From NCBI GenBank assembly GCA_018383975.1, contig JAHAZT010000037.1, positions 1 to 39,584 on the forward strand: a stretch of DNA of 39,584 nt. The letters run 5' to 3'. Both the position numbers and the translations under genes were made by a program. The DNA is from Eubacteriales bacterium. Its GTDB lineage: Bacteria; Bacillota; Clostridia; Oscillospirales; CAG-272. The notes beneath the pieces were generated by a model. It was not told the DNA's origin. It saw only the letters and a list, made by a program, of their open reading frames with translations, and made no database searches. Positions 6,195 through 30,359 of the stretch are shown in pieces; positions within the stretch are counted from its first letter, which is position 1; each line of letters opens with the position of its first letter.

Positions 6195-6233
6195 ACTTAC
6201 CTGAAACAAGCAATTTATGCGACTCTGACAGTT

Positions 6234-6294
6234 CTCGACGCCGCTCGGTCACCGGCGGCTCTGACAGCCTCAAAGGCTGTCATTCACTACCGCC
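6234..6294. repeat. Solitary copy of nested-hairpin repeat (same family as 28261-28676)
   Basis: CTCGACGCCGCTCGGTCA identical to part of unit at 28564; GGCGG-CTC-TGACAGCC-tcaaa-GGCTGTCA-TTCACTA-CCGCC. Confidence 0.85.
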
Positions 6295-6312
6295 TTCTCC
6301 GCTTCCCGCCAA

Positions 6313-6352
6313 AGAAAAAAACAAAAGCCGCCGAAGCGACTTTTGCTTTTTT
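6313..6352 (-). terminator. Rho-independent terminator of tRNA-Thr/Gly transcript, apparently bidirectional
   Basis: Stem CAAAAGTCGC-TTCG-GCGGCTTTTG (minus) followed by T tract; plus-strand side also followed by cttttttgg. Confidence 0.8.
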
Positions 6353-6425
6353 GGAGCAGATGACGGGAATCGGACCCGCGTAGTCAGCTTGGGAAGCTGA
6401 TATTCTACCATTGAACTACATCTGC
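6352..6425 (-). tRNA. tRNA-Gly(CCC)
   Basis: Cloverleaf GCAGATG/CATCTGC acceptor, anticodon loop TTCCCAA, T arm GCGGGTCCGATTCCCGT, encoded CCA. Confidence 0.95.
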
Positions 6426-28260: not shown

Positions 28261-28676
28261 GGGATTCGAATTCTCGCGTCTCGACGACGCTCGGCCAGGC
28301 TCGGCTCTGACGTGCCAAAGGGCACGTCATTCACTACCGAGCCCGTTCGAATCCGCTTGTCAAAAGGAAAAGGGGGATTCGAATTCTCGCGTCTCGACGA
28401 CGCTCGGTCAGGCTCGGCTCTGACAGTCTCGCTGCGGCTCGGTCACACTCGGGTTCTGACAGCCGTCTAAGGCTGTCATTCATTGCCCTCGTGCCGCTTC
28501 GCTACGTCAAAGGCTGTCATTCACTACCGAGCCAGTTCGAATCCGCTTGTCAAAAGGAAAAGGGGGATTCGAATTCTCGCAGCTCGACGCCGCTCGGTCA
28601 GGCTCGGCTCTGACAGCCATCCAAGGCTGTCATTCACTACCGAGCCCGTTCGAATCCCCTGTGCCAAAAGGAAAAG
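28261..28676. repeat. Array of three nested-hairpin repeat units (113, 190, 113 bp), the middle one containing a nested extra copy
   Basis: Units start gggattcgaattctcgc at 28261, 28374, 28564; each ends gttcgaatcc...caaaaggaaaag. Confidence 0.92.
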
Positions 28677-28704
28677 AGCGCTTTCAGCGCTCTTTTCCTT
28701 TTGG
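28664..28704 (-). terminator. Perfect 19-bp stem directly after tRNA-Arg, includes the CCA tail
   Basis: CCAAAAGGAAAAGAGCGCT-ttc-AGCGCTCTTTTCCTTTTGG. Confidence 0.75.
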
Positions 28705-28778
28705 CCTGCCCTGGGGGATTCGAACCCCCAACCGTCAGAATCGGAATCTGATACTCTATCCAATTGCGCTAAGGGCAG
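28702..28778 (-). tRNA. tRNA-Arg(CCG)
   Basis: Cloverleaf CTGCCCT/AGGGCAG acceptor, anticodon loop TTCCGAT, T arm GGGGGTTCGAATCCCCC, encoded CCA. Confidence 0.96.
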
Positions 28779-30063: not shown

Positions 30064-30359
30064 GCTTGATGTGCGATGAAGCGGGAGGTTGCCGTGATTT
30101 CACGGGTAATTTCCGCAGAGTATGTCCGACATTGAACCGGGCGAGAGCTTTTTTGGAATCTCTTTTGATGTTTTGGATATTGCGCCGCGTGCGGCGTCAA
30201 TCCGATGAAAAACACAAGTGCCGCCGGAAAATTTTCCGGTTTTTATTAAGAGGGCGTGGAAACGCCCGGCAGAGTGTTCCGTAAAGCTGAGACGCGGACG
30301 GCGAAAGCCGAAAACGTCGCCGCCTACTTAAAAATCTTAAACAGGAGGCAAAGAAAACA
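30064..30359 (+). promoter_or_regulatory. Long structured leader of rpsJ with terminator-like hairpin
   Basis: CGCCGCGTGCGGCG (30183-30196), CCGGAAAATTTTCCGG+TTTTTATT (30224-30247), GGGCGtggaaaCGCCC downstream; about 300 nt without CDS. Confidence 0.55.

Follow-up and report, generated by a model that had tools for sequence, protein, structure and literature searches.

The window, by which we mean the whole stretch of 39,584 nucleotides that was analysed, carries a tRNA-Arg(CCG) gene on the minus strand at 28702-28778, and three repeat units lie 3' of it: unit 3, nearest the tRNA gene, at 28564-28658, unit 2 in the middle at 28374-28544 and unit 1, the distal one, at 28261-28354. All three are on the minus strand, which is the tRNA sense strand and the relevant strand of the units. 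Between tRNA-Arg and unit 3 is a palindrome of 43 nt with 20-nt perfect arms (28663-28705, assigned to neither strand), which is the terminator-like hairpin of tRNA-Arg and also the apex of a larger palindrome that runs from tail through terminator to inverted tail. An additional copy with decayed outer arms is present on the minus strand at 6222-6313, 60 nt 3' of tRNA-Gly(CCC) (6352-6425). Rfam at gathering scores gave only tRNAs and the S10-Clostridia ribosomal protein leader (RF03136), which is at 30067-30144 on the plus strand ahead of the S10 operon, and E-value mode over the array gave nothing credible, in line with the initial annotation, which did not recognise the array as a named element.

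Units 1 and 3 are 94-95 nt long, and each unit has an outer stem GGGATTCGAA/TTCGAATCC, an arm 1 made up of middle stem (GGCTCGG/CCGAGCC), internal loop and inner stem, and an arm 2, a 5-bp hairpin. This second arm, for example GCGTC-tcgac-GACGC, is a small extra hairpin between the middle and outer stems, and it is its presence that makes the unit a three-way junction. All three units share one unchanged asymmetric internal loop, which on the strand of the tRNA reads TAGTGAA/GAG. The initial annotation had proposed three units with shared nested stems around such a loop and every part was found in its place, as was the compensated change in the inner stem, which is TGACGTGCC-aaag-GGCACGTCA in unit 1 and TGACAGCC-atccaa-GGCTGTCA in unit 3. 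Unit 2 has the same architecture and is longer than the others because a copy of the GTAGCGAAGCGGC ... GCCGCAGCGAGAC type (28426-28505, minus strand) is nested in the loop of its inner hairpin. When units 1 and 3 are folded as single-stranded DNA the z values are -6.4 and -5.7, with none of 200 dinucleotide shuffles equal to them, and the lowest z for three-way-junction DNA folds is -7.2. The order of parts in unit 3 is inverted T-arm tail, arm 1, arm 2 and direct T-arm tail. The outer stem is thus present as first described, but it is not specific to the element: its sequence originates from tRNA-Arg, and across loci it is a copy of the T-loop and T-arm of the neighbouring tRNA and tracks the tRNA species.

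The suggestion of an element family with many copies also held. A covariance model built from 115 distinct cores has 16 matches in the 1.48-Mb draft genome to which the window belongs. Within the order it matches 82 of the 396 genomes, belonging to 42 of the 168 genera, and the distribution is patchy. Under strict filters no copy was found in the 299 other genomes of a phylum-wide sample (300 including our own genome). A pattern scan of GTDB genomes gave at least 117 stretches; among those listed nearly all are from Oscillospiraceae, Clostridia or Clostridiales MAGs and most come from herbivore guts. The motif is also found in sixteen stretches (L165-L180, from IMG/VR) of contigs classed as viral, for which true phage and host DNA are both possible. 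Inner stems from one genome resemble each other more than those from different genomes do (0.73 against 0.61; permutation p about 0.001), a pattern of sequence likeness consistent with local amplification.

With regard to position, adjacency to a tRNA gene is the rule in the own genome and not chance, a point that the initial annotation overlooked. Thirteen of the 16 copies were verified to lie 3' of a tRNA gene (Arg, Gly, Ser, Gln, Val or Ala) or of tmRNA on the same strand. Another comes after a tRNA-Glu-like remnant that is recognised by neither ARAGORN nor Rfam, and two are at a contig end. In L016 (about 1590-1655) the sequence upstream of a copy resembles tRNA-Glu(CTC), with a good T-arm and acceptor end, and was rejected by ARAGORN and Rfam; it is perhaps a decaying or rearranged tRNA gene. 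The host tRNAs of the own genome, tmRNA aside, mostly have C at anticodon position 34 (CCG, CCC, CTG, CAC, CGC), and C34 tRNAs are often dispensable isoacceptors. A preference for these was considered and dropped, as over all loci the count is 17 of 35 and the excess is too weak to claim.

The relationship to the host gene is clearest in the tails, which were compared for 38 loci covering 13 tRNA kinds and tmRNA. Downstream of the core there is a direct copy of the 3' tail of the host gene, with a mean longest match of 16.6 nt against 6.5 for permuted tails; upstream of the core that tail recurs as its reverse complement (12.2 against 6.5). The direct tail usually starts at tRNA position 55-56 and mostly ends at CCA, and the inverted tail reaches position 53-54. 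The left arm therefore has bases absent from the distal tail, which makes the intact tRNA the probable template of this arm. In L082 the tail, the terminator and the inverted tail together make up a single palindrome that is nearly perfect. The idea of a tRNA minihelix, with the left arm derived from the 5' strand of the T-arm, was rejected, as the arm matches the 3' part in reverse complement, reading ACTTGAA at tRNA-Leu and not TTCAAG. In L140 (about 1750-1950) an intact tRNA-Ser has no encoded CCA and the distal tail copy retains it, which suggests that the gene originally ended in the distal tail. In L013 (1401-1700) there are two tandem units at tmRNA with identical flanks and different terminator hairpins, each perfectly paired (GTCGCC/GGCGGC and GCACCC/GGGGTGC), so that terminators too seem to be exchanged or rewritten.

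The stems covary strongly. For the fixed structure the share of paired cells is 90.3%, compared with 31.8-43.6% in slid versions and 73.3% in shuffles, and 313 cells are changed on both sides against 92 in shuffles. Several inner-stem positions show all four Watson-Crick pairs. The second arm is freely variable, and of 154 tails 67 have a hairpin of at least 5 bp, where shuffles give 13.7. The covariation noted in the initial annotation is thus very strong, and its view of a non-coding, maintained structure is supported.

That annotation left the level of the structure as RNA or cruciform DNA, and of these the DNA level is favoured and the RNA level disfavoured. Under selection as RNA, G-U pairs are tolerated and A-C pairs are not. 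The variable inner stem has 3 G-U and 6 A-C, whereas tRNA stems from the same loci have 62 G-U and 9 A-C; the middle stem has 28 and 20. The p-values for these counts are nominal, as copies share ancestry. As G-U is no commoner than A-C in the inner stem, the structure seems, from the base pairs, to be maintained symmetrically on both strands and as DNA, not RNA, a pattern that DNA hairpins, or the repair of palindromes by template switching, would be expected to give. This bears on an alternative in which the units are transcribed, by read-through from tRNA promoters, as a structured RNA (tRNA trailer, sRNA or attenuator). Its stems would be selected as RNA, and its inverted tail could base-pair with the 3' end of the tRNA and influence maturation. 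Covariation around a fixed internal loop would suit such an RNA, as would the constant orientation and 3' position relative to tRNAs. However, besides lacking the G-U excess, the units are beyond a strong terminator-like hairpin, and in other genomes many copies are far from any tRNA and within other repeats, and we regard an RNA role as quite unlikely.

Evidence for insertion comes from several loci. In L022 a copy splits a tRNA-Leu(CAG) gene at the D-loop: the flanks, once joined, are recognised as tRNA-Leu(CAG), an intact twin adjoins, and there is no target duplication. In L120 a copy is at the same D-loop site in a fragment beside an intact tRNA-Leu(CAA). Neither of these D-loop insertions has complementary arms, a point against the interpretation favoured below. 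There is double nesting of copies at a tRNA-Val locus, and elsewhere copies are inside other hairpin repeats with a few stem bases replaced. The terminal ends of copies, GTAGCGAAGCGG/CCGCAGCGAGAC, are only partly inverted. Same-genus relatives are too distant for an empty-site comparison at tRNA-Arg. The usual host of dispersed copies (L160, L065, L126, L128, L244 and others) is another abundant hairpin repeat (CCTTCCCCTTGAGGGGAAGGTGG...GGATGAGGTG, with GGCTCC(C/T)...TGACTGAGGG variants), which may be a separate family of its own.

These insertions have to be set against the proposal that there is no transposition, and that old palindromes at tRNA terminators have grown and been homogenised by replication slippage and template switching, the covariation being mutational (quasipalindrome correction). 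Watson-Crick pairing is indeed almost perfect and without strand bias, and tail, terminator and inverted tail do form one palindrome. But copies are at unrelated sites in many families, including the tRNA D-loop, and both the linker TGACCGAG and the internal loop are kept although unpaired. For the loop, the pattern search fixes its letters, including GGTAG, in the loci it selects, so that conservation in those loci is not independent evidence; in the G571 copies, which were found by the model, GGGAG replaces GGTAG and the rest of the loop is largely kept. Growth in place is on this evidence very unlikely.

No enzyme could be linked to the copies, which also counts against that interpretation, the candidates tried being Y1/RAYT and IS110 transposases, integron integrase and recurrent neighbours. 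The own genome has no Y1 or IS110 transposase, two other carriers (G001 and G038) have no Y1 transposase, 59 relatives including the own genome have no integron integrase over the TIGR02249 cut-off, and no recurrent mobility gene family was found beside copies. Divergent RAYT-like Y1 transposases of about 170-210 aa are present in relatives (L248, L251, L255, L257 and L258), with no copy nearby.

Among the known systems to consider are the GTAG-tagged REP sequences, which are moved by a RAYT (Y1) transposase by cut-and-paste as single-stranded DNA. They are alike in being extragenic imperfect hairpins in many copies, in part with GTAG near the hairpin, and probable single-stranded DNA substrates (PMC3733652). 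In favour of a family of this kind are the hairpin signature at DNA level, GGTAG adjoining the hairpin (fixed by the pattern in pattern-selected loci), the GTAG with which many dispersed copies begin on the left, and RAYT-like genes in some relatives. Yet the own genome, G001 and G038 are without Y1 transposase, none of 23 Y1 loci in relatives (11 RAYT-like and 12 other) has a copy nearby, and GTAG is absent from G571 and from some left ends or loops (TGAGCGAAGC, GGGAGTG). Present units are also branched and about 80-95 nt, whereas REPs are single imperfect palindromes of 20-40 bp, and the arms here are derived from the target. Assignment to the REP/RAYT group is therefore unlikely.

Integron attC sites are likewise imperfect hairpins of DNA, in which unpaired bases are conserved and terminal structures vary, but they have no counterpart of the second arm or the tRNA tails, and by eye the T-loop GTTCGAA does not fit the attC core GTTRRRY (R and L boxes RYYYAAC/GTTRRRY). 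Genomic islands that integrate at tRNA genes use tyrosine recombinase att sites, and resemble our units in having an intact tRNA upstream, a direct 3'-tail copy at the far side and tandem accretion. The present unit differs in being about 100 bp and without genes, in having an inverted tail as well, and in that the tail always matches the particular host tRNA whatever its isotype. The units may also be compared with a MITE, which has its own terminal inverted repeats and a short target-site duplication; here the outer arms are host sequence.

In kind the family also resembles repeats of organelle DNA. The double-hairpin elements (DHE) of Allomyces are of the same class as the RHE of sponge mitochondria. 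The latter are likewise short non-coding multi-hairpin DNA repeats, scattered and presumed mobile, with no known enzyme (PMC2800124). Our family is also a multi-hairpin DNA repeat in many dispersed copies, and nesting and the interruption of tRNA-Leu suggest that it may be mobile; it differs in being bacterial, in forming a three-way junction with one fixed internal loop, and in having an outer stem copied from the host tRNA tail. The likeness is one of kind, and a relation in sequence is not expected. Phage and plasmid collections gave no match to the element, and searches of the literature by topic and motif letters found no description of the repeat family, which is previously unnamed and spread through gut Clostridia. 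A human-microbiome structured-RNA survey reports 250 palindromic candidates (PMC8040213), with which the family may overlap.

We suggest, with a probability of about 0.62, that the array consists of clustered copies of a mobile DNA-hairpin repeat which is non-coding and non-autonomous and colonises tRNA genes. The family lies beside tRNA genes, with copies of the tail of the respective gene on both sides, and so looks like a tiny selfish element made of DNA folds rather than a functional RNA. A copy would fold, as single strand or cruciform, into a three-way junction with an outer stem of host sequence; the fixed internal loop TAGTGAA/GAG, capped by a freely varying inner stem, would be the likely protein-recognition feature, and the second arm a small variable hairpin. 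We infer that the element is recognised through this loop and moved in trans by an enzyme that acts on single-stranded DNA. Copies would multiply within a genome, with other hairpin repeats, the loops of other copies, or tRNA or tmRNA genes as landing sites, in the last case mostly at the T-loop immediately before C56. At tRNAs the surviving copies would be those within a partial gene duplication, with an intact tRNA upstream and a second tRNA tail after the element. The inverted tail is probably due to fold-back (template-switch) synthesis at the palindromic terminator, a step that is a reconstruction, and such synthesis would also keep the stems perfectly paired. It is possible, though doubtful, that the family stands for a class of DNA-fold parasite with no fixed outer ends, which acquires its outer stem, through fold-back copying at the terminator, from the tRNA gene that it enters, and leaves that tRNA rebuilt.

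Hairpin repeats in bacteria are usually ascribed to RAYT transposases, and here we have an order-wide family with no RAYT in the host, with covariation at the DNA level and with arms derived from the host. The family is also a warning that a functional RNA is not necessarily implied by strong covariation together with a conserved loop. If the reading as a DNA-fold parasite is true, one short hairpin can colonise many of the tRNA and tmRNA genes of a genome. The family offers many natural replicates for study of the ways in which hairpin DNA spreads and tRNA genes withstand insertion.
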